DNA of 61,431 nucleotides from Spirochaetota bacterium (GTDB taxonomy: Bacteria; Spirochaetota; UBA4802; UBA5368), in the NCBI GenBank assembly GCA_004297825.1, contig SCSX01000055.1:1-61431 (forward strand). Reading direction: 5' to 3'. The notes below the pieces were generated by a model that worked only from the letters and a program-made list of their open reading frames with translations, was not told where the DNA came from and did not search any database. This document shows, piece by piece, positions 22,373-35,508 of the stretch (position 1 is the first letter of the stretch; every line of letters begins with the position of its first letter). The position numbers and the translations under genes were made by a program.

Positions 22373-23626
22373 TTGGAAGGAAAAACAAATAACCAGGTAC
22401 CAGGCGGCTTGATAAGAAACATCTACGTCGCCCGCCAGCCGATATTCGACCGGCACAAGAACATCTTCGCGTACGAGCTCCTCTTCCGCTCCGGGTTTGA
22501 CAATTTCTACGACAGTCTGGACGGCGACTACGCCTCCACGCGCACGATGCTCAACAGCTTTTTCCTGCTCGGGATGGACACAATAACGGGCGGCAAGATG
22601 GCCTTCGTGAACTTCACCCGCAACCTGCTCCTGAACGAGGTGGCGACCATTTTTCCTAAAGAGCTCCTCGCGGTCGAAGTGCTCGAGAACGTCACCGCCG
22701 ACGACGCCGTGGTCGCGTCGTGCAAAAAACTCAGCAAGTCGGGTTACCTGATCATCCTCGACGACTTCATGCTGAAGCCGGATTATGAACCGCTCATCGA
22801 AGTGGCCGATATCATAAAGGTCGATTTCAAGCTGGCCAACCACGGGGAGCGCAAGAAAATCCTCGATTCGATCGGACGGAACAAGCATAAGTTTCTCGCC
22901 GAAAAGGTCGAGACGCTCGACGAGTTCAACCAGGCCAAGGACCAGGGTTTCGCCTACTTCCAGGGCTATTTTTTCAGCAAACCACATATCGTCGCGGGCG
23001 CGTCCATACCGCCGCGCAAGCTCACCTACATGCAGATAATCCAGGAGATGAACAGCCCCGACATGGAGTTCGACCTGTTGGAGCACATCGTGAAGCGCGA
23101 CATGGCGATCACCTACAAGCTCCTCAAGCTGATCAACTCCGCGGCATTCGGGCTTCGTACAAGGGTCCAGTCCATTCGGCATGCCCTGACCCTTTTAGGC
23201 ATCAACGAGATCAGGAAATGGATCACCTTCCTGGCGATGAGCGAGATGGGAAGCGACAAGCCCGACGAGCTCCTGATACTGGCGATGACGAGGGCGAAGT
23301 TCGGCGAGATCATGGCTTCGAAAATCGGCATGCTGGAGAGGGAGGCGGATTTCTTCCTCTTGGGAATGTTTTCCATGCTCGACGCATTCATCGACCGGCC
23401 CATCGCCGATATACTGGAAGAGCTTCCGATCTCCGACGAGATCAGGGACGCGCTCACGGGCAAGGACAACCGGTTCCGCGACGCCTTCGAGCTTATCGTC
23501 GCCTATGAAAGGGCCGACTGGACGCGGTTTTCGATTTATGCGAAACGGCTTGGACTGAACGAGCGTCTCGCCCCCGACATCTACTACAACGCACTGCAGT
23601 GGGCGCTGTACATCTTCAAGGTCTGA
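22373..23626 (+). CDS. EAL-HDOD signalling protein (YuxH family)
   Basis: The 417-residue protein has an N-terminal EAL-like domain (YVARQPIFDRHKNIFAYELLFRS), where the E-A-L triplet is E-L-L, and a C-terminal HDOD domain (MAITYKLLKLINSAAFGLRTRVQSIRHALTLLGINEIRKWI). In the EAL part several metal ligands are replaced (ILDDFMLKPD in place of a canonical DDFG motif), as is usual for YuxH proteins, so c-di-GMP hydrolysis is doubtful and binding or regulation is more likely. The start is probably a TTG at 22373 with GAGGAA upstream; a TTG at 22409 is an alternative. Confidence 0.85.
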   Translation: MEGKTNNQVPGGLIRNIYVARQPIFDRHKNIFAYELLFRSGFDNFYDSLDGDYASTRTMLNSFFLLGMDTITGGKMAFVNFTRNLLLNEVATIFPKELLAVEVLENVTADDAVVASCKKLSKSGYLIILDDFMLKPDYEPLIEVADIIKVDFKLANHGERKKILDSIGRNKHKFLAEKVETLDEFNQAKDQGFAYFQGYFFSKPHIVAGASIPPRKLTYMQIIQEMNSPDMEFDLLEHIVKRDMAITYKLLKLINSAAFGLRTRVQSIRHALTLLGINEIRKWITFLAMSEMGSDKPDELLILAMTRAKFGEIMASKIGMLEREADFFLLGMFSMLDAFIDRPIADILEELPISDEIRDALTGKDNRFRDAFELIVAYERADWTRFSIYAKRLGLNERLAPDIYYNALQWALYIFKV

Positions 23627-24596: not shown

Positions 24597-25079
24597 TTAT
24601 TCAGCCATCTGCCGGAGCTCATCCGCGGTAAAAATCTTCTCTACGTCCAGAATGATGATGAGTTTCGAGTTCTTCTCCGCGATTCCGCGGATATAATCCG
24701 TGTCGATGTTCACGCTGAAGTGCACAGTATCCTGGATCGCGTCGACGGCCAGGTTCACGACGTCGGATACCGCATCGACGATTATCCCGATCATCGTGCC
24801 CCGGGACTGCACCACCATGATCACGTTAATCTTGTCATACCCCTTGGCCGGAAGCCCGAATTTTATCCTCAGGTCCACGAGTGGCACGACGATGCCGCGC
24901 AGGTTTATCACCCCCTTCATGAAAGGCATCGAATGGGGTACGTGGGTGATCCGCTGCATACCCACGATCTCCTGGACCTCCAGCACCTGGATACCGTAAC
25001 TCTCACCCATGAGATCGAACGTGATATACTGGCGTTCGTCGATCGCGGCTTTTTTTTCTTCGCGTGTGGTCATTCCCAT
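24597..25079 (-). CDS. cheW: Chemotaxis adaptor CheW (second copy)
   Basis: The 160-residue adaptor couples receptors to CheA. It has the CheW fold: YITFDLMGESYGIQVLEVQEIVG, then FMKGVINLRGIVVPLVDLRIKFGLP and DAVSDVVNLAVDAIQDTV. The conserved N-L-R-G is intact. It is the last gene of the chemotaxis operon, 9 bp after the soluble receptor-like gene, so the two may form a pair. It differs clearly from the other CheW at 29.3 kb. Confidence 0.93.
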   Translation of the reverse strand: MGMTTREEKKAAIDERQYITFDLMGESYGIQVLEVQEIVGMQRITHVPHSMPFMKGVINLRGIVVPLVDLRIKFGLPAKGYDKINVIMVVQSRGTMIGIIVDAVSDVVNLAVDAIQDTVHFSVNIDTDYIRGIAEKNSKLIIILDVEKIFTADELRQMAE

Positions 25080-25088
25080 AACAGGCTC

Positions 25089-26897
25089 CTAAAAGAATAT
25101 TGTCTCGGATTCCCGTGCCGAACCCTCATGAATTTCATTGAGAAGGGATATGAGCATCATCACCCGGTAATCCCCCTCCTCCGCGTTCTCCCTTAAAATA
25201 TCCCGCACGCGGGCCGCCTGCAGTACCTGGCCCTTGAGCTCCTCGCGCTCGTCGCCGTTCGGGTCGCCCAGGGAGGCCCCCGCCTTCTCGCGCATCATGC
25301 TGAGCGTGTCAACGACGCGCGCAAGCGCGTCGCGCCGGGAACCGTAGTCTTCGACGAAACGAAGGATCCCGTCCCTGCTCTCGGCCACCTTTTCCGATAT
25401 GGTATCGTAATATTTACGCGACTCGAAGAGCTCGACGGAAACCTTCTTGATCGCATCGACGCCGTTTCGCAGGCTCCCCTCCTCCCGGCGCGAATTGTCG
25501 AAATAGCGCTCCACCGACATCTCCATGGCCGCACTCACCTCCTCGTAGATCACCGCGAGCGCCGCGACGACCTGTTTGATCTTGGCGGGGAGGGAGCTTA
25601 CATCCTCCAGCGCGCCCCGAAGCTCGCGCTGGAGGGTTGTGTGCCGGGAGAGCTCGATGCGCGTGATCATGGTTATGATCTCCAGCCTGCGCGTCACCCC
25701 GTCGATACCGTCGAAGAACTGGCCGAAGCTCCGCATCGTTTCCAGGATTCTCTTCGATATCGCGTACACGGCGTCCTTGTCTGCAATGATCTTCTCGATG
25801 AAATCGACATAAAGCAATTTCACCTGCTCTATGCCGCCGTAGATTTGGTCTATCCCCTCGCCGCGTGTATCGCCGGCGCCCGATCCGAAACGCGCGGATA
25901 TCTGCGAAGTTACCTCGTTTATCCGCGCAAAATTGGAAGCGATTTCCATAGACAGCGCCTGGATATTCCTGCTTATCTGGCCGCTCTTCTGCCTGAGCAT
26001 GAGCATACTGAGCCGCTCCATTATTGGGCCGCCCAGCTCCGCGCGGCTTCGTTCGAACAGACCACCGTTTTCGGCAAGGACCTCTTCCGCGAGGTAAAGC
26101 ATCTTCTCGAAATCCTGCCGGATTACGTCCTCGATGCTCATGCCCGCGATAACGGAGCGGAGCGACGTCTCCACCTGCCGCATGCCCCCTATCATCTCCA
26201 CAACCTCCATGCTTATCTCCGCGAGCCGCTCGGTGATCTTCCGAAAGATCATCTTGTTTTCGATCTTGATACGGGTCAGGTAATTCTGGTGGGTAATATC
26301 GTTGTCGTTGCGCAGCGCGGTGAAGGTTTTATAATCGCCGCCAAGCTCCGCGAGTCTCGCGGAAAGCCCCGTCGATATCGAGCCCGCGTCGTGCGAGAGC
26401 GCCCCCATCTCGGTCGCGATTCTCGCCAGGGCGTCTCCCTGGCTCCCGGTCTTCTTGGAAAAGATCATGGTATTCAGGGCGTGAATCTCGATTTCCTCGA
26501 ATATCTCGAGGAGCCCGGTAATGCCGCCGTGAAGCTCGAAGCTTTTTCGGATCGCCTCCGCAACCTCGCTTGAAATTTCAAGGTCCGCTTCCATAACCCT
26601 GACGGCTTCATCGATGGCATAATCGATGTTATCGCGCTGGGAGAGCACCACGTCGTTGAGGAAGCACTCGGCGGCGCGGACCTCGGAGATCGTGTAGAAA
26701 TAGCGCACGTACGGTTCGATCATGCCCAGGAACTCGTCCAGCCCCTGCACCGTGCTGATGAGAAATTCCCTTACCCCTCCAAAGACGTCCTGGATGGATT
26801 GCCTGAACGGGGTGCATGTCGTCCGCACTTCCCTCATGAAGGCCATGATGGCTTCCTGATCGTGCGCTGCTACGGGTGCCGTCCGGCTCTCGATCAT
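25089..26897 (-). CDS. Soluble receptor-like protein of the chemotaxis operon, unknown function
   Basis: The 602-residue protein is almost entirely helical, with no transmembrane segment and no known sensor domain. Residues about 133-175 (IEIHALNTMIFSKKTGSQGDA and the segment after it) look like a worn version of the receptor hairpin tip, which in canonical receptors reads T-N-L-L-A-L-N-A-x-I-E-A-A-R-A-G-E. Residues 257-261 are DVIRQ, matching the D-x3-Q of the CheZ phosphatase active site; a related helix near residue 570 has DILRE. The ATG at 26897 follows GAGGAG, just after the cheB stop. It is flanked by cheB and cheW. Possible roles are cytosolic signalling scaffold or CheY-P phosphatase; both are inference. 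Confidence 0.6.
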   Translation of the reverse strand: MIESRTAPVAAHDQEAIMAFMREVRTTCTPFRQSIQDVFGGVREFLISTVQGLDEFLGMIEPYVRYFYTISEVRAAECFLNDVVLSQRDNIDYAIDEAVRVMEADLEISSEVAEAIRKSFELHGGITGLLEIFEEIEIHALNTMIFSKKTGSQGDALARIATEMGALSHDAGSISTGLSARLAELGGDYKTFTALRNDNDITHQNYLTRIKIENKMIFRKITERLAEISMEVVEMIGGMRQVETSLRSVIAGMSIEDVIRQDFEKMLYLAEEVLAENGGLFERSRAELGGPIMERLSMLMLRQKSGQISRNIQALSMEIASNFARINEVTSQISARFGSGAGDTRGEGIDQIYGGIEQVKLLYVDFIEKIIADKDAVYAISKRILETMRSFGQFFDGIDGVTRRLEIITMITRIELSRHTTLQRELRGALEDVSSLPAKIKQVVAALAVIYEEVSAAMEMSVERYFDNSRREEGSLRNGVDAIKKVSVELFESRKYYDTISEKVAESRDGILRFVEDYGSRRDALARVVDTLSMMREKAGASLGDPNGDEREELKGQVLQAARVRDILRENAEEGDYRVMMLISLLNEIHEGSARESETIFF

Positions 26898-26905
26898 TGT
26901 TCTCC

Positions 26906-27979
26906 TCACCGGGCCATGTACTTTAATATCATTCCCGCGACCTGGTCAAGGGGGAGCACCTCGTCTACGCCTCCCCTGCGAATCGCCTCCTTCGGCATAC
27001 CGAATACGACGCATGAACGCTCGTCCTGGGCGACCGTGCGGGCCCCCGCACCGTGCATCTCGAGCATCCCGGCGGCGCCGTCGTCCCCCATCCCGGTAAG
27101 GATGATTCCCAGGGCGTTCCTGCCCGCGCTCTTCGCTGCCGAGCGGAAGAGCACGTCAACCGAGGGCCTGTGCCTGCTGACCAGCGGGCCTCCGTTCACC
27201 CCGACGAAGTATTCGTCCCCCCTCCGGTTCAACAGCATGTGGAGGTTTCCCGGCGCGATGAGCGCGAGCCCCCTGTGCACCTTGTCGCCGTGCGATGCCT
27301 CCTTCACCTCCATGGAACACACGTCATTGAGCCTGTCCGCGAAGGCCGTGGTGAACTTTTCGGGCATATGCTGGACTATCACGAAGGGCGGCGAATCCTT
27401 GGGCATGGCCGAGAGCACCTCTTCTATCGCCTGTGTGCCCCCCGTCGAGGCCCCGAGCACGACCACCCGATCGGCGGTGGCGTCCACCTGTTTCCCGTCC
27501 CAGGGCCGGAGCACGCTGTCGGCGCTGAGCTTCGGGGCGACCTTCACAGCCTGGACGCTCCTGGAAAGCACCTTTTTCAAATCCGCCTGTGCCGCGGACT
27601 TCACGGTGTCGATGAGCATGGTCTCGGAATCGAAAAGAAATTTTTTAAGCTCCAACCCGGGCTTGGAAAGCACCTCGACCGCGCCCGCGGCGAACGCCTG
27701 CATGGCCACCTTTCCATGCGTCGTGAACATGATGACCGGTGTGGGTCGGCGTGCCATGATCTCGGCAAGAAAGGTGAGGCCGTCTTTCTGCGGCATCTCG
27801 TAATCCAGGATTATTACGTCGGGCCATTCCCTGTTGAAATGGTTTTCGGCGAACACGGGGTTGGCGCTCGCCCCGATCACCTGGATCCCGGGATCGGCGT
27901 TCAGGATATCGGAAAGGGTCTGCCGGAGGAGCGCAGAGTCGTCCACGATATGCACTTTTATTGTATCAGTTTTACCCAT
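26906..27979 (-). CDS. cheB: Chemotaxis protein-glutamate methylesterase/deamidase CheB
   Basis: CheB removes methyl groups from receptors and deamidates them. Residues 5-125 form a receiver with acidic pair DD (13-14) and phospho-acceptor Asp-59 (IILDYEMP). The C-terminal catalytic domain has the Ser-His-Asp triad: GASTGG, QHMP and GMGDDGA. A linker of about 40 residues joins them. The ATG at 27979 overlaps the end of cheD by 22 bp, so the two are coupled. A TTG five codons earlier is possible. Confidence 0.95.
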   Translation of the reverse strand: MGKTDTIKVHIVDDSALLRQTLSDILNADPGIQVIGASANPVFAENHFNREWPDVIILDYEMPQKDGLTFLAEIMARRPTPVIMFTTHGKVAMQAFAAGAVEVLSKPGLELKKFLFDSETMLIDTVKSAAQADLKKVLSRSVQAVKVAPKLSADSVLRPWDGKQVDATADRVVVLGASTGGTQAIEEVLSAMPKDSPPFVIVQHMPEKFTTAFADRLNDVCSMEVKEASHGDKVHRGLALIAPGNLHMLLNRRGDEYFVGVNGGPLVSRHRPSVDVLFRSAAKSAGRNALGIILTGMGDDGAAGMLEMHGAGARTVAQDERSCVVFGMPKEAIRRGGVDEVLPLDQVAGMILKYMAR

Positions 27980-28437
27980 ACGTTCCCGGTCCAAAGGTCA
28001 AAAATAATGCTATGGTGCCTCAAGCCCCCGAGCTTCGCCGCCCGTATCGAAAACCCGTACCGCGCGAGATGTTCCTTCCCATGCATTATGTTCTCCCGGC
28101 CTATGTCGCTTCCCCATATCCCGGGAAACATGTTGGCCCCGCCGAACATCTTCACATGGTACTCCGCCGGCTCGGTGCGCGCCTTCCTTATCTCCCTGAG
28201 TATCAGCGCTATCGCGTCGCCGCCGTAGCGCGGGTCCATCTCCATGCTCTCCTCGCTCGGGTTATTCGAGAGCAGGTAGTGGCACATCCCCCCGATCATC
28301 TTCCCGGGGTGCCACACCGTGATGGCCACGCACGAGCCCAGAATGGTCCGAATGCGCGTCCCCTCGTCCCCCCAGTAGAATTCCCCGGGCTGAAGGAATA
28401 CCTCTACCGTGTACGGAGGTGTGGGCTCGAGCTTCAT
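27958..28437 (-). CDS. cheD: Chemoreceptor glutamine deamidase CheD
   Basis: CheD converts receptor Gln to Glu. The 159-residue protein has the family's catalytic Cys in TILGSCVAI (Cys-36) and His-53 in MCHYLLSN, plus the usual KMFGGANMF segment and a terminal strand TGNVWVKL. The spacing Cys to His is 17 residues, as in Thermotoga CheD. In Bacillus-type systems CheD also binds CheC; no cheC is present here. It overlaps cheR by 4 bp and cheB by 22 bp. Confidence 0.95.
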   Translation of the reverse strand: MKLEPTPPYTVEVFLQPGEFYWGDEGTRIRTILGSCVAITVWHPGKMIGGMCHYLLSNNPSEESMEMDPRYGGDAIALILREIRKARTEPAEYHVKMFGGANMFPGIWGSDIGRENIMHGKEHLARYGFSIRAAKLGGLRHHSIIFDLWTGNVWVKLIQ

Positions 28438-29288
28438 GGCACCCGGTATACGGAGGGCGCTGCCTTGCGGAGCTCCACGCCTATCCCCATGAGGCTCTCC
28501 ATGTGCCCCACGAAAAGATAGCCCCCGGGCTTCAGGCTGGGGATAATCCGCTCCAGAACCTCCCGCTTCGTCTTCCGGTTGAAGTATATCATCACGTTCC
28601 GCAAAAACACAACATCAAAAAGCCCGATCACGGGAAGCGGCTTCACCAGGTTTATCTGCAGAAACCGTATCCCCGCCGCGAACGCCGGGTCGATGAGCAG
28701 CGTCCCCTCCTGGGAGCGAACGCCCTTGAGACAGTACTTCTTAAGATACGGTTCCGGAATTTCTTCGCGTGCCGATATCGGGTAGACTCCGCTGCGCGCC
28801 TGCGAGAGCACGTCGTCGTTCGCATCGGAGCCCATCACTTCCCAGGAGGATGCCGGAATGTGTTCGGCGAGGACCATCGCGATCGTATAGGCTTCCTCTC
28901 CCGTCGAGCAGGCGGCGCTCCATGCCCGGAATACCGCGGACGGCGACCGCGCGGGGATCACCGTTTTTGCGAGGAAGCCGAAATGCTCGTCCTCGCGGAA
29001 AAAATGCGTTTCGTTCGTCGTGAGCAGGTTGAGCAGGACCCTGCGCTCGTCCTCGTTTTTTTCGTCCAGCGCAAGCGCCAGGTAATCCTGGTAGCTCGTG
29101 AGGCCGAAGTGCCGCAGGCGCTTCATCAGGCGTCCCGCCACGAGGGCGCGTTTTTCAGCCGAGAGCGAGATTCCCATGTCCCTGAGCACCATGGCCCTGA
29201 AGGTTTCGAATTCCCGGTCTCCCAGGCGGTACCCCGCGGGAGACGCCGCATCCGTTGCGGCAGGGGATGGCGTATCACGGGAAGTCAT
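28434..29288 (-). CDS. cheR: Chemotaxis methyltransferase CheR
   Basis: CheR methylates receptor glutamates using SAM. The 284-residue protein has the N-terminal helical domain, then LTTNETHFFRE, the SAM-binding strand FRAWSAACSTGEEAYTIAMVL, the acidic GSDAN, and NVMIYFNRKTKREVLERI. All are canonical. A proline/alanine-rich stretch precedes the domain. I chose the ATG at 29288 (GAGGG upstream); upstream in-frame codons fall inside cheW. Confidence 0.95.
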   Translation of the reverse strand: MTSRDTPSPAATDAASPAGYRLGDREFETFRAMVLRDMGISLSAEKRALVAGRLMKRLRHFGLTSYQDYLALALDEKNEDERRVLLNLLTTNETHFFREDEHFGFLAKTVIPARSPSAVFRAWSAACSTGEEAYTIAMVLAEHIPASSWEVMGSDANDDVLSQARSGVYPISAREEIPEPYLKKYCLKGVRSQEGTLLIDPAFAAGIRFLQINLVKPLPVIGLFDVVFLRNVMIYFNRKTKREVLERIIPSLKPGGYLFVGHMESLMGIGVELRKAAPSVYRVP

Positions 29289-29298
29289 GACCCGGCCC

Positions 29299-29796
29299 TC
29301 AGGCGCCCGCCGCCGGCCGGGCATCGAACGCTGCCAGCTCCTCGATATCGAGCACGCGTTCCAGGTTCAGCATGATGACGAATTCATCGCGCACCTTGCC
29401 GATCCCCGCGATGAAATCGTTGCGGATCTTCGCCCCGAAGCCCGGCGTGGTTTCGATGTCCTCGCCCTGCACGTCCACCACCTCGCGCAGGGCGTCTATG
29501 AGGACGCCCATGGGAACGCGCTCCCCGGCGACATCGAGCTCCACGACCACGATGCAGCTGTATTTCGTGACGGCGCTCGCGTAGCCGTAGAAGCGCGCGG
29601 ACAGGTCGATGATCGGGACCACGTTCCCGCGCAGGTTCAGCACACCCCCGATATGGAGCGGCGTGCGCGGGACGGCGGTGACGCTCGTGTACTCGATGAT
29701 CTCCTTGATGGTGCCGATGTTCATGCCGTAGAGCTCCTTCCCTATCGAGAAGGTCAGGTACTTGTTGATGCGTTCCGCGTCGTGTCGCTCTTCCAT
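29299..29796 (-). CDS. cheW: Chemotaxis adaptor CheW
   Basis: The 165-residue adaptor has the CheW pattern KYLTFSIGKELYGMNIGTI, then GGVLNLRGNVVPIIDLSARF and DALREVVDVQGEDIETTP, with N-L-R-G intact. It directly follows cheA (8-bp gap) and precedes cheR, so it is probably the main CheA-receptor coupler. The second cheW at 24.6 kb has a different sequence. Confidence 0.95.
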   Translation of the reverse strand: MEERHDAERINKYLTFSIGKELYGMNIGTIKEIIEYTSVTAVPRTPLHIGGVLNLRGNVVPIIDLSARFYGYASAVTKYSCIVVVELDVAGERVPMGVLIDALREVVDVQGEDIETTPGFGAKIRNDFIAGIGKVRDEFVIMLNLERVLDIEELAAFDARPAAGA

Positions 29797-29804
29797 CGCT
29801 CACC

Positions 29805-31997
29805 TCACACCCCGGCTCCTTCTTTTACGGCGGATGACTGCACGTGCATGATGAGGCGCGGCACGTCCAGGATGAACGCAACCTCCCCCGTTCCCAGGAT
29901 GGTGGCGCCGCTGATCCAGTCGAGTCCGCCGAATATCTTTCCCATGGGCTTGATCACGGTCTGGAACTCGCCCAGGAGCCTGTCGACGACCAGCCCGGCG
30001 CTCACCCGGCCGTATTCGACGACGATGATATTTCCCCGCAGCGGGGGGACGCCCTTTTCGCCCAGGAACTCCCGCATCGGGAGAAACGGGAGTACCGATC
30101 CCCTGAGATTGATGAAGCTTCCCCCCTCCTTGCCGGCGAGATCCTCCTTCGAGACCTCGATGCATTCCACGACCATGTCGAGCGGGATCACGTAACTCAG
30201 GTTACCCACCTGCACCATGAAGCCGTCGATAATGGCTATGGTGAGGGGCAGCCGTATGCGCACGACGGTGCCGTAATCCGGGGTGCTCTCCACGTCCACG
30301 ACGCCCCTGAGCGCCTCGATGTTCCGCTTTACCACGTCCATGCCCACCCCGCGGCCGGAGATGTTCGTGACCTTTTCGGCCGTGGAGAAGCCGGGGCGGA
30401 AGATGAGCTGGAGTATCTCGGTGTCGCTCAACTGCTGGCCCGGCTGGACCAGCCCCAGGTCGAGCGCCTTCCGGTAAACCCGCTCCCTGTCCAGGCCGCT
30501 CCCGTCGTCCGAAACCTCGATGACGATGCTCCCGGTCTCGTGAAACGCGTTGAGCGAAATCGTTCCGCGCGGGTTCTTCCCGCGCGCCCTGCGCGCGTCG
30601 GGGGAGCCAATCCCGTGATCCAGGGCGTTCCGCACGATGTGCATGAGCGGGTCCCCGATTTTTTCCACGAGCGTCTTGTCGACCTCGGTCTCGGCGCCGG
30701 TGATGACGAGCTCGGCCTCCTTGCCCGATTCGCGGCAGTAATCGCGCACGATGCGCTCGAACTTGCGGAAGGACTCGCCTATCTGCACCATGCGCAGGTT
30801 CATCGAGTTCTCGCGAATCTGCTCGATGAGCCGGGACATGCGCGAGGCGGACTCGATGAGGTCGGCATCGGCCCTCTGCGCCGCGAGCTGCTTGACGTTC
30901 TCACCCGCGGACACGAGCTCCCCGACGAAATTGATGAGCTGGTCGAGCTTCTCCCCGTCCACGCGCATCGAACGCCGGTTCTTCTCTTCTATCGTGCGTA
31001 TCTGCCTCTGCTTTTCCAGGGCGGCCTCGACCACCTCGCGCGGCGCAATCTTCTCCTCGACGAGTATCTGCCCCAGGGGCGTTCTCGCCTCCGTGCCTTC
31101 ACGCACCTCGTTCTCCTTCTGCTTTTCGAGCATCCGCGTCAGCTCGCCCTGGGTGATGGATCCGCTCTGCACCAGTATCTCGCCTATGTTCACCGGCGTT
31201 TCGGGAAGCTCCCGGATCAACTGCTTGTAAACCCGGATGCTCGATCGGGGCGGGATAATCCCGATCACGCAGTCGTCCTTTACGAATTCGAACGCGCTCT
31301 CGATCATCTCCCGCGATACGCCGGACCGGAATTCGATCTCGAAACCCAGGTAGCATTTCTCGGCGTCCAGTTCCGCCGCGGGCGGAAGCGCGTTCATCAC
31401 CGTGACGCAATTTTCGATTTCACCCATTCCCCTCAGGTAATTAATGAAGGGAAACGGGTCCAGCCCGTTCATGAACACCTTCTCGTTGAACCGCAGCGAG
31501 ATGTGCCAGTTTTCATTTTTCACGCTGTCCGGCTCCGGTGCGCCCGGGGCCGTGTCGGGCGGCGGGGGCGCCGATACGACCGCCGCCGGTTCCGGGCGCG
31601 CCTCGTTTCCATAAAGCCTGATCTTCTGGGCCAGGAGCGCTCCCGTGCCGGAGGTCTCCCTGTCCAGCGGATCGTCCTCCCCGCGCTCATGGAGATCGAT
31701 AAGCATCCGGATGTGATCGTGCGCGGGCAGGAGGAGCGCCGTCATCTCCGCGTTGATGCGCAGCTCGCCCTTCCGCACCCTGTCGAGCAGGCTTTCCAGC
31801 GCGTGTGTGAATTCCTCCACGTGCCTCACGCCGAACATCCCGGACGATCCCTTGATGGTGTGCACCGCGCGGAAGAGCGCGTTCACCGCCTCCTCGTCGT
31901 CGGGGCGCTTCTCGACCTCGAGGAGCAGGTGCTCCATCTCATCGAGAATCTCCCGCGCCTCCGCCATGAATGACTGTTTCATTTTATCCATGCCCAT
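29805..31997 (-). CDS. cheA: Chemotaxis histidine kinase CheA
   Basis: CheA phosphorylates CheY and CheB in response to receptors. The 730-residue protein has an HPt domain with phospho-His-46 (AVHTIKGSSG), a middle segment with an extra region (residues about 165-330, including GEILVQSGSITQGELTRMLEKQKE, typical of the two-repeat linker seen in some CheA), the dimerisation helices, the ATPase domain (HIVRNALDHGI, DDGSGLD, GRGVGMDVV) and a C-terminal CheW-like domain. I find no separate CheY-binding P2 domain of the standard type; the segment at 165-250 could take that role. The start codon is the ATG at 31997. Confidence 0.95.
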   Translation of the reverse strand: MGMDKMKQSFMAEAREILDEMEHLLLEVEKRPDDEEAVNALFRAVHTIKGSSGMFGVRHVEEFTHALESLLDRVRKGELRINAEMTALLLPAHDHIRMLIDLHERGEDDPLDRETSGTGALLAQKIRLYGNEARPEPAAVVSAPPPPDTAPGAPEPDSVKNENWHISLRFNEKVFMNGLDPFPFINYLRGMGEIENCVTVMNALPPAAELDAEKCYLGFEIEFRSGVSREMIESAFEFVKDDCVIGIIPPRSSIRVYKQLIRELPETPVNIGEILVQSGSITQGELTRMLEKQKENEVREGTEARTPLGQILVEEKIAPREVVEAALEKQRQIRTIEEKNRRSMRVDGEKLDQLINFVGELVSAGENVKQLAAQRADADLIESASRMSRLIEQIRENSMNLRMVQIGESFRKFERIVRDYCRESGKEAELVITGAETEVDKTLVEKIGDPLMHIVRNALDHGIGSPDARRARGKNPRGTISLNAFHETGSIVIEVSDDGSGLDRERVYRKALDLGLVQPGQQLSDTEILQLIFRPGFSTAEKVTNISGRGVGMDVVKRNIEALRGVVDVESTPDYGTVVRIRLPLTIAIIDGFMVQVGNLSYVIPLDMVVECIEVSKEDLAGKEGGSFINLRGSVLPFLPMREFLGEKGVPPLRGNIIVVEYGRVSAGLVVDRLLGEFQTVIKPMGKIFGGLDWISGATILGTGEVAFILDVPRLIMHVQSSAVKEGAGV

Positions 31998-32041: not shown

Positions 32042-34204
32042 TTAAAATTTTTCATAGTCATGCTGTGGCTGGCCCGCGGCAATCGCCGTCTTCTTCGCAT
32101 CCCCGGCATGCGCCACGTGGATCCTGTGGTGTTTCACCGGGCCGTCATCCAGCTTGTATTCCACCCCCAGTTTGAAAAACGAGATCGTCTCCTGCAACTG
32201 TTTGGATTGCGCGTACAGCGACTCGGCGCTCGCCGCCATCTCCTCCGCCGCGCCCGCGTTCTGCTGGATCACCTGGTCCAGCTGCTGGATCGCGCGGTTG
32301 ATCTGGTCGGCCCCGGACAACTGCTCGCGGCTCGCCGCGTTGATGTCCTGAACCAGCTCCGCCGTCTTCTGGATGTCGGGAACGAGTTTCTTGAGCATCT
32401 CCCCCGCGTGCTCGGCGATCTTCACGCTCTCGGAGGATATCCTCGTGATCTCGCCCGCGGCGTCCTGGCTGCGCTCCGCGAGCTTCCTCACCTCGGTCGC
32501 CACCACGGCGAAGCCCTTGCCGTGCTCGCCCGCGCGCGCCGCCTCGATCGTCGCGTTAAGCGCAAGGAGGTTGGTCTGATACGCGATGTCCTCGATGATC
32601 GTGATCTTCCCCGCGATATCCTTCATGGCCTTCACGGCCTCTTCCACCGCGCCCCCGCCGTCCTTCGCGTCCGCGGCGGCCTTGATCGCGATCGTCTCGG
32701 TCTGCTGCGCGTTTTCCACGTTCTGCTGGATGTTCGCGCTCATCTGCTCCATGGAGGACGAGACCTCCTCGGCGCTCGCGGCCTGCTCGGTGGCGCCGCT
32801 GGACATCTGCTGCGCCGTCGACTGGAATTCGTTCGCGCTCGACGACACGGCGTCTCCCGCTCCCTTCACGTCGACCACCACCTTGGCGAGACCCTCGACC
32901 ATCCTCTTGAGGGCCTGCATGAGCTTGTCCTCGGCGGAGCGGTCGCGCACGGTCACCTGGAGATTTCCCTGGGCGAGCTCGCTCGCGGAATTGGTCACCT
33001 CGTTGAGCGCGTCGATAAGCTGGTTGAGGTTGATCTTGATCGCGTTGAAATCGCCGTTGTAGCTTTCGGTGATCTTCGCGGGCACGTCGCCCTTCGCGAT
33101 CCTGTCCACGTACTCGGCAGCGACGTTCAGGGGGCCGATAACGGCGTCCAGCGTGTCGTTGACGCCCTGGACGATCTTCCGGTAGTCGCCCTGGTGCTTT
33201 CCCGCGTCGGCGCGGGTCCCCAGCCTCCCTTCAAGCGCGGACTGGACCAGCATTTTCGCGTCGGTGACAAGCTGGTTGAGGGCGTCGATGCACAGGTTGA
33301 GATTGATCTTGATCTCGTTGAAATCGCCCTTGTAGGTATCGGTGATCTTCGCGGGGATATCGCCCTTCGCGATGCGGTCCACGTATTTCGCGGCAACGTT
33401 CAGCGGACCGATAACCGCGTCCAGCGTCGCGTTCACCCCCTCGACGATGGGACGGAATTCGAAATTGATCTTCTCGATATCGGCGCGTGCGTCGAGCTTC
33501 CCGTCGATCGCGGCGTCGGTCAGGCGCTTGGTTTCCCTCATGAGGGACTTCAGTATCCGCGCGATGCCCCTGTAGAGGAAGAGACTGAGACCCAGGGCGA
33601 CGATGATGGCGGCGACCCATATCGCCACGGTCAGCGTTATCGCCGCCGACGCGGTCCTCTCGTTGTTTTTCGATCGCGCTTCGGCCTCATGTTCTTTTAG
33701 ATCGAACAGCTTCCTTATCAGCTCGCTCATTTTGTTGCCGGTCGGCGTGGCAGTCACGAGTCCCCGCGCGACCTCGTCCTTGTTCTGGGCGTTGATCGAG
33801 ACGAACAGGGCGTTGATCTGGGGGATGTACTTCTCGAACGTGCCCTTCAGCTCGTTGAACAGTATCCGGTCATCGTTCGAGCTGATCGTCTTTTCGTATT
33901 TTCTGAAGGCGTCCCCGATCTTGTTCTCGAGGTCCCTCACCACCGCTATTCGCTCCTCGATATTCTTATTGTAGAGGAGCCTATCGCTGATCGAATATAC
34001 GATAGTCAGGCGCATCGTGATCAGGTAGCTCTCGATATCGCTGACCGACACCAGGCCGATCACGTTCTCCTCGAAGAGCGCCTTGCTGTCGTTCGAAATC
34101 CGGTTGAGGCTTACCACCCCGACCGACCCGATCACCACGACGGCGGCGAGAACAACCACGAATCCCCAGGTTATCTTTGCTCCAAGTTTCATTTTACCGA
34201 ACAT
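32042..34204 (-). CDS. Methyl-accepting chemotaxis receptor with poly-HAMP and C-terminal CheR tether
   Basis: The 720-residue transmembrane receptor has an N-terminal helix, a four-helix-bundle periplasmic sensor (residues about 35-190), a second helix ([23 protein letters not shown]), then a HAMP region extended by two near-identical modules ([20 protein letters not shown] and [20 protein letters not shown]). The signalling domain has the canonical tip [21 protein letters not shown]. The last five residues are DYEKF, which fits the x-aromatic-x-x-aromatic pentapeptide that tethers CheR and CheB. The ligand is unknown. It lies between the STAS and cheA genes, so it is probably the operon's cognate receptor. 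Confidence 0.93.
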
Positions 34205-34671: not shown

Positions 34672-35046
34672 TCAGATGATGAGCTTCTCGATCGCCGATA
34701 TGAGCTTGTCCGGCGCGAACGGCTTCGTTATCCAGGCCTTCACACCCGCGTCGCGTCCCTCGATTTTCCTGTCTTCCCCCGTTTCGGTCGTGAGCATGAT
34801 CACGGGGGTGAAACGGAAATCGGAATAGGCCGCGTCCGTTTTCACGGTCTTCACGAATGTGATCCCGTCCATTTCCGGCATGTTTACGTCGCACACGATC
34901 AGGTTTATTTTTCCCCCAGCGAGTTTCGCGAGCGCCTCCTGACCGTTCCCGGCCTCCAGCACCGTGTAACCGCGCTCCTTGAGCGTAAAGCTGAGAAGCT
35001 GCCGGATGCTCGGCGAATCGTCCACCACCAGAATGGTTTTACTCAT
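34672..35046 (-). CDS. cheY: Chemotaxis response regulator CheY
   Basis: The 124-residue single receiver has DD (residues 9-10), phospho-acceptor Asp-53 (LIVCDVNMPEMDG), the switch Thr in MLTTE and Lys in ITKPF, all intact. It should be phosphorylated by CheA and act on the flagellar switch or another output. It is 15 bp downstream of the degenerate receiver gene and 11 bp before the STAS gene. Confidence 0.92.
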   Translation of the reverse strand: MSKTILVVDDSPSIRQLLSFTLKERGYTVLEAGNGQEALAKLAGGKINLIVCDVNMPEMDGITFVKTVKTDAAYSDFRFTPVIMLTTETGEDRKIEGRDAGVKAWITKPFAPDKLISAIEKLII

Positions 35047-35061: not shown

Positions 35062-35508
35062 TCATGTGTTTTCAATGACTCCATCGTTATCGCCCGGACC
35101 CGCGCTCCCGCGCCGCAGCAGGGACCGGATTGTATCTATGAGCTCGTCATAGCTCACGGCAAGGATCCCCCGGTACTCGAGATCCCGTGAGAGCTTGTTT
35201 TTCAGCGCGCGGTCGTACTCCTCGGATTCCGGCGCATAAAGGATTATCCCCTGAAACTCCCGCATTACGGACTTGAGCCTCTTGAGAAGTTCGTCGGGAG
35301 GCTCCCCGAGCGTGGAATAATTCATGGCCACATAGCGCGGGAACACGGCCGCCGCCTGCCACAGCGCGTCGCGAAAATCGGCGCTCGTGAGTATGTTCTC
35401 TTTGTCGAATAATTCGGTGAGGGCGACGGCAAGCGTGTCGCACAATTCATTGTTGGGCTCGATAATCAGTATTTTTGCGTCGTGAGCGGCTTTTTCCTGC
35501 AATCTCAT
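35062..35508 (-). CDS. Degenerate receiver-like protein, first gene of the chemotaxis operon
   Basis: The 148-residue protein has the pattern of a response-regulator receiver (AKILIIEPNNELCDTLAVALTELF) but lacks the chemistry. The acidic pair is E-P, the phospho-acceptor position is Asn-63 (YVAMNYSTLG), and the K-P motif is replaced (ILAVSYDEL). It therefore cannot be phosphorylated in the usual way and may act as a binding decoy or regulator of CheA, CheY or STAS. The C-terminal tail (RRGSAGPGDNDGVIENT) is disordered and acidic. It is probably the promoter-proximal gene of the eleven-gene operon. Confidence 0.65.
   Translation of the reverse strand: MRLQEKAAHDAKILIIEPNNELCDTLAVALTELFDKENILTSADFRDALWQAAAVFPRYVAMNYSTLGEPPDELLKRLKSVMREFQGIILYAPESEEYDRALKNKLSRDLEYRGILAVSYDELIDTIRSLLRRGSAGPGDNDGVIENT

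Follow-up and report, generated by a model that had tools for sequence, protein, structure and literature searches.

A soluble receptor-like relative of Borrelia BB0569 carries a conserved Asp-Gln pair with the spacing of the CheZ catalytic residues

The window analysed here, a 61,431-nucleotide stretch of DNA from a Spirochaetota bacterium, holds a chemotaxis (che) cluster in which a gene for a receptor-like protein of 602 residues lies between cheB and cheW. What such a protein does is the question raised by this locus; an earlier note, made from the sequence alone, had proposed an undescribed class of chemotaxis component that would supply a missing CheY-P phosphatase through a CheZ-type D-x3-Q motif. 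The open reading frame was verified on the minus strand (26897..25089, start codon ATG), the strand being absent from that note. The cluster is collinear, with cheB 8 nt upstream of the gene and cheW 9 nt downstream, and is read in the order cheY, STAS-domain ORF, chemoreceptor, cheA, cheW, cheR, cheD, cheB, 602-aa gene, cheW. Its features, with the evidence for each, are as follows:

24597..25079, minus strand: cheW (ORF, similarity to neighbours in relatives)
25089..26897, minus strand: 602-aa soluble helical receptor-like protein of a BB0569-related family (ORF and profile comparison)
25092..25118, minus strand: predicted disordered C-terminal tail, residues 594-602, ending near the conserved F601 (alignment, structure model)
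25638..25700, minus strand: second tip-like segment, residues 400-420 (...MITRIELSRH), with I414 and E415 near-invariant (alignment)
26115..26129, minus strand: D257-V-I-R-Q261, a CheZ-type D-x3-Q with its Asp 115 residues past the tip Asn (alignment, with the genome's receptors as control)
26373..26501, minus strand: degenerate MCP tip, residues 133-175, with N142, G151 and G154 near-invariant (profiles, alignment)
26906..27994, minus strand: cheB (ORF, Pfam)
27958..28437, minus strand: cheD (ORF, similarity to neighbours in relatives)
28434..29324, minus strand: cheR (ORF, similarity to neighbours in relatives)
29299..29796, minus strand: second cheW (ORF, similarity to neighbours in relatives)
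29805..31997, minus strand: cheA with Hpt, H-kinase_dim, HATPase_c and CheW domains (Pfam)
32042..34204, minus strand: ordinary membrane chemoreceptor with 4HB, HAMP and MCPsignal domains (Pfam)
34672..35046, minus strand: cheY, a single receiver domain (Pfam)

Two further genes lie at the edges of the cluster. An EAL-HDOD protein is encoded on the plus strand at 22373-23626, and since the same gene also neighbours the family gene in L002, L003 and L044 this synteny is conserved in the family; a 148-aa ORF without a Pfam match (35062-35508) adjoins cheY. An Rfam scan of the window gave no match, and sites found in a promoter and terminator scan were no commoner than chance.

The 602-aa protein lacks a membrane segment (best 19-residue Kyte-Doolittle mean 1.31), and every Pfam model scored below its cut-off, with no sensor domain found and no match to the CheX and CheC models (PF13690/PF04509); on the membrane segment and the sensor domain the earlier note was right. 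Soluble MCPs exist, and missing transmembrane segments and a missing ligand-binding domain do not by themselves exclude an MCP. The worn receptor tip reported at residues 133-175 was likewise confirmed, and profile comparison identifies it as genuine MCP homology. A profile of 17 relatives matched the cytoplasmic domains of solved MCPs over the tip with E ∼4e-6, and a profile of the N-terminal half matched the 24 receptors of the same genome in profile-profile comparison (97.5% probability, E 7e-12), placing N142, G151 and G154 on the receptor-tip motif. The MCPsignal model itself gave 12.2 bits over residues 129-250 (cut-off 34.6), and reached 35.6 bits in the relative L087. A second tip-like segment (IITMITRIELSRH) is found at residues ∼407-419; it is called only tip-like because the C-terminal half does not match MCPs. 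Internal duplication was considered and rejected: the two half profiles are weakly similar (E 1.7e-5, to which helix bias may contribute), and the C-terminal half is without a match to MCPs.

Relatives of the protein were sought in several searches. A first single-protein scan of genome contigs gave no match, and a single-protein search found matches in 26 of 98 genomes (its own and related ones), some of them weak and to other receptor-like proteins. When 393 genomes of the phylum were searched with a profile, relatives matching over their full length appeared in all parts of the same order, and remoter ones in many other families; the weak matches of this search included ordinary MCPs. The named contigs that carry relatives come from Spirochaetota, Spirochaetes or Spirochaetia MAGs and one uncultured bacterium. 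In a distant family with genomes of 0.9–1.9 Mb the gene order is cheW, a 103-aa ORF, cheA, cheB, the family gene (591 aa) and cheY, which matches the published order cheW2-bb0566-cheA1-cheB2-bb0569-cheY2 (PMC10703414). At 1156 bits the Borrelia-type protein L081 passes the NCBIfam equivalog model NF052273, 'BB0569 family chemotaxis protein'. The 602-aa protein itself did not match this model, and its best relative within the order (L002) scored 25.7 bits against a cut-off of 1000, which was evidently set for close orthologues. The gap is bridged by profiles: that of the in-order relatives aligns with L081 collinearly and at full length (positions 12-577, E 1.4e-10), and L084 matches both the in-order profile (E 8.5e-42) and NF052273 (E 1.6e-41). 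'Borrelia-type', as well as 'Brachyspira-like' below, are labels that we infer from sequence and gene order. These comparisons relate the 602-aa protein distantly to Borrelia burgdorferi BB0569 and make it a member of a phylum-wide spirochaete family. The suggestion of an undescribed class thus has to be withdrawn, BB0569 being covered by an NCBIfam model and having been studied through a mutant: the protein belongs to a known family, functionally unexplained, and not to a new class. The sister genome was seen to carry a divergent second paralogue (L094:14700-16034, G001:C44), truncated by the contig edge, with VEDLMRQ and a C-terminal VVFF.

The motif DVIRQ was found at residues 257-261, as had been noted. 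A further D-x3-Q (DITHQ) occurs by chance at residue 200, so that the pattern in one sequence means little and conservation is what counts. In an alignment of 28 sequences from across the phylum, N142, G151, G154, D257, Q261, I414, E415 and F601 are the eight columns without any substitution; when the alignment is widened to 61 sequences, whose median pairwise identity is 16%, I160 and F395 join those eight as columns conserved at 90% or more. D257 is kept in 61/61 and Q261 in 60/61, the one exception being a stray ordinary MCP whose Asp is a coincidence of alignment. Both residues are thus kept in all 60 relatives that carry the motif, a count that includes L093, which is a shorter soluble MCP and not a full family member. 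The flanking positions vary (256 E/Q/H; 260 R/K/T/Q/S; 264 E/D/Q and others). A protein of some 600 fast-changing residues is in this way reduced to about ten conserved ones, two of them spaced like a known catalytic pair. That the motif is a chance feature of a decaying receptor without specific function could appeal to the degenerate tip, the scores below Pfam cut-offs and the chance D-x3-Q at residue 200; conservation across the phylum contradicts it, as intact ORFs keep the Asp, the Gln, the tip residues and a C-terminal Phe, and the genes sit inside che clusters, so that we regard decay as very improbable.

The position of the pair is as constant as its identity. In 36 of the 38 family sequences measured the Asp lies exactly 115 residues past the tip Asn, and in the other two 111 or 112 residues. 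None of the same genome's 24 receptors with a recognisable tip has D-x3-Q at this register, where they carry the EQ-type sequence of methylation helix 2. Conservation in all 60 relatives with the motif is strong evidence that the D257/Q261 pair matters. The pattern LQF[QE]D-x3-Q also picks out the Borrelia-type protein in ∼30 genomes, and the literature searched, apart from the primary BB0569 study, was found to hold no description of D-x3-Q conservation in this family. Outside the family, soluble MCP-like proteins (L119, L120, L121, L124 (= L090), L129, L130 and L093) were observed with LQ[FS][QE]D-x3-Q at 115-116 residues past the tip Asn, which suggests that the pair occurs more widely among receptors.

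The structure model (11 sequences; mean pLDDT 82, pTM 0.60) is all-helical, with disordered ends at residues 1-6 and 594-602. In it D257 and Q261 belong to a helix modelled with confidence (residues 255-274, pLDDT 86-89), which follows immediately on a break at 253-254. DSSP placed no break at the tip, and no hairpin is claimed there for that reason. A search of PDB structures with the model was uninformative, yielding SMC proteins and toxins, matched through long helices with poor TM-scores. An invariant polar pair could, instead of a catalytic site, be a structural or a binding site. The protein would then be a non-enzymatic component of the array, a soluble homologue of receptors with a scaffolding or tuning role for CheA/CheW, in which the two residues serve packing, a hinge after the 253-254 break, or non-catalytic binding of CheD, CheY or CheB. 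True tip homology and the helix break just ahead of the motif are consistent with this, as are the cheD-adjacent genes and the genomic CheX described below. BB0569, moreover, is described in two reports as an atypical, polar MCP that is important or essential for chemotaxis in B. burgdorferi, the Lyme disease spirochaete (PMC10703414, PMC5318424). A purely structural role is nevertheless hard to square with an Asp and a Gln alone being kept at i and i+4 while their neighbours vary, and does not easily explain the exact CheZ spacing; we hold a non-enzymatic role to be distinctly possible, if short of probable.

The C-terminal end offers a second point of resemblance to CheZ. Phe is the last residue in all family members (penultimate in two), usually within [DE]-[VIF]-x-[LFMVI]-F, on an end that is predicted to be disordered. 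In E. coli CheZ, too, the last residue is a Phe, and the flexible tail that it closes binds CheY. The tail sequences differ apart from this Phe, and the resemblance is treated here as an analogy. The idea that a Phe tail marks every D-x3-Q receptor was rejected because it is missing from the majority of the other soluble MCPs, and a tblastn search of plasmids with one MCP tail gave no match.

Gene order around the family gene varies between lineages. Within the same order the genes usually run cheA-gene-cheY-cheW-cheD-cheR-cheD-cheB; cheB-gene-cheW is retained in the window's own family, and Brachyspira-like genomes have gene-cheY-cheA-cheW-cheR-cheD-cheB. The gene adjoins cheY in eight relatives of the order, in a Borrelia-type genome (cheB-gene-cheY) and in the Brachyspira-like genomes, and in six other lineages its neighbour is cheD or cheR-cheD. 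The Borrelia CheX phosphatase works with CheD (PMC5318424). The cheB, cheD and cheR neighbours in the window, and cheD or cheR-cheD in those six lineages, would also suit a regulator or decoy of adaptation, that is, a receptor mimic that CheD, CheB or CheR would use as a substrate or tether, with the C-terminal Phe motif acting like the pentapeptide by which receptors tether CheR and CheB. The universal Phe and the methylation helix 2 register of the D-x3-Q segment fit this idea. The tail, however, conforms to an aromatic-x2-aromatic tether only in Brachyspira-like members and a few others, and the conserved Asp and Gln are not a Glu/Gln methylation site; a role of this kind seems unlikely to us.

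Homology to CheZ lends no support to a phosphatase activity. The full CheZ profile gave no match in hhalign, and the best E to the Pfam CheZ model among 17 relatives was 0.017, in a single member. A restricted alignment did pair the two Asp residues with each other, and likewise the two Gln residues, at a score that 35 of 150 block-shuffled controls also reach. CheZ homology was therefore rejected as not significant. Sinorhizobium meliloti CheT, reported as a DXXXQ phosphatase outside the recognised CheZ proteins that dephosphorylates one CheY-P, provides a precedent for convergence on this motif (PMC12654446).

Neither does a gap in the pathway argue for the activity. The reported absence of cheZ, cheC and cheX is true of the window's contig, and no CheZ was found in the genome; CheX and CheC-like domains are encoded elsewhere, with five CheX and three CheC matches above cut-off. 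One CheX of 156 aa (L133:6410-7352, G000:C33) has an intact E-x2-N (GELVN), adjoins a CheY-like receiver and lies near a CheA-similar kinase ORF. A second chemosensory cluster (L137, G000:C19:68000-80000) encodes cheW, a CheA of more than 1,070 aa, cheB and cheY, and the open frame of this CheA also holds CheX/CheC-type matches; in all, the genome has three CheA genes and 43 MCPsignal matches. The argument from a vacant phosphatase role fails on these genes. The earlier note had counted a canonical CheX or CheZ elsewhere in the genome, and lack of conservation of D257/Q261 among homologues, against its own reading: such a CheX is present and CheZ absent, and the pair is kept in 60/60 relatives carrying the motif. 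Its interpretation as a whole is partly supported.

Our preferred reading is an array-bound, receptor-derived protein that may act on CheY-P via a CheZ-like site. The protein would probably dock at the CheA/CheW array through its degenerate tip. The D-x3-Q at the methylation helix 2 register would act on CheY-P, most likely that of its own cluster, whose cheY (34672..35046) encodes the proposed substrate. As CheZ does with its own pair, the protein would use Q261 to position the attacking water and D257 to contact the active site of CheY. The disordered, Phe-ended tail would serve as a tether, comparable to the CheY-binding peptide at the C-terminus of CheZ. Borrelia genetics tempers this proposal. 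CheX is the CheY-P phosphatase there, and its mutant flexes constantly (PMC4013479). BB0569 consequently does not replace CheX for CheY3. A bb0569 mutant is said to run without reversing, the opposite of what is expected from loss of a CheY3-P phosphatase; CheY2, encoded beside BB0569, would still be a possible substrate. For BB0569 no phosphatase role was found in the literature searched, the primary BB0569 study excepted. In view of these genetics we place CheY-P phosphatase activity of the 602-aa protein, judged from sequence, at very nearly an even chance. The broader proposition, a phylum-wide class of receptor-derived CheY-P phosphatases, BB0569 included, with D-x3-Q in place of a methylation helix and a Phe tether, is put forward tentatively, as somewhat less than evenly balanced. 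If true, the receptor arrays of spirochaetes would hold an enzyme of their own, in the form of a receptor, for ending the signal, and with the same motif and register in other soluble MCPs, CheZ-like catalysis would be more widespread among receptors. Conservation of D257/Q261 in any case gives a concrete idea of what the family may do, BB0569 itself being reported essential for chemotaxis yet functionally unexplained.

The protein can be compared with several known systems. Functionally analogous CheX, CheC and FliY belong to the same pathway and are present elsewhere in this genome, but have another fold and use E-x2-N rather than D-x3-Q. CheZ (PF04344) resembles the 602-aa protein in its helical make-up, with D-x3-Q placed on a helix, in its flexible Phe-ended tail and, when many relatives are considered, in a gene near cheY; it differs in its length of 214 aa and in lacking a receptor tip, from which the Asp of the 602-aa protein is 115 residues distant. 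CheT is similarly a DXXXQ protein outside recognised CheZ; by its description it has a CheZ-like predicted structure, binds CheR and is not receptor-like. The soluble MCPs outside the family share D-x3-Q at tip +115/116, but are shorter, have tips nearer to those of ordinary MCPs and are mostly without the C-terminal Phe tail. With BB0569 the likeness extends to solubility, the degenerate MCP tip, the C-terminal Phe, a place after cheB in a che cluster and the D-x3-Q itself (QDRLTQ in the Borrelia-type protein, DVIRQ here); the two differ in the next gene, which is cheW here and cheY2 in Borrelia, and in sequence, the 602-aa protein being too divergent for the NF052273 cut-off.
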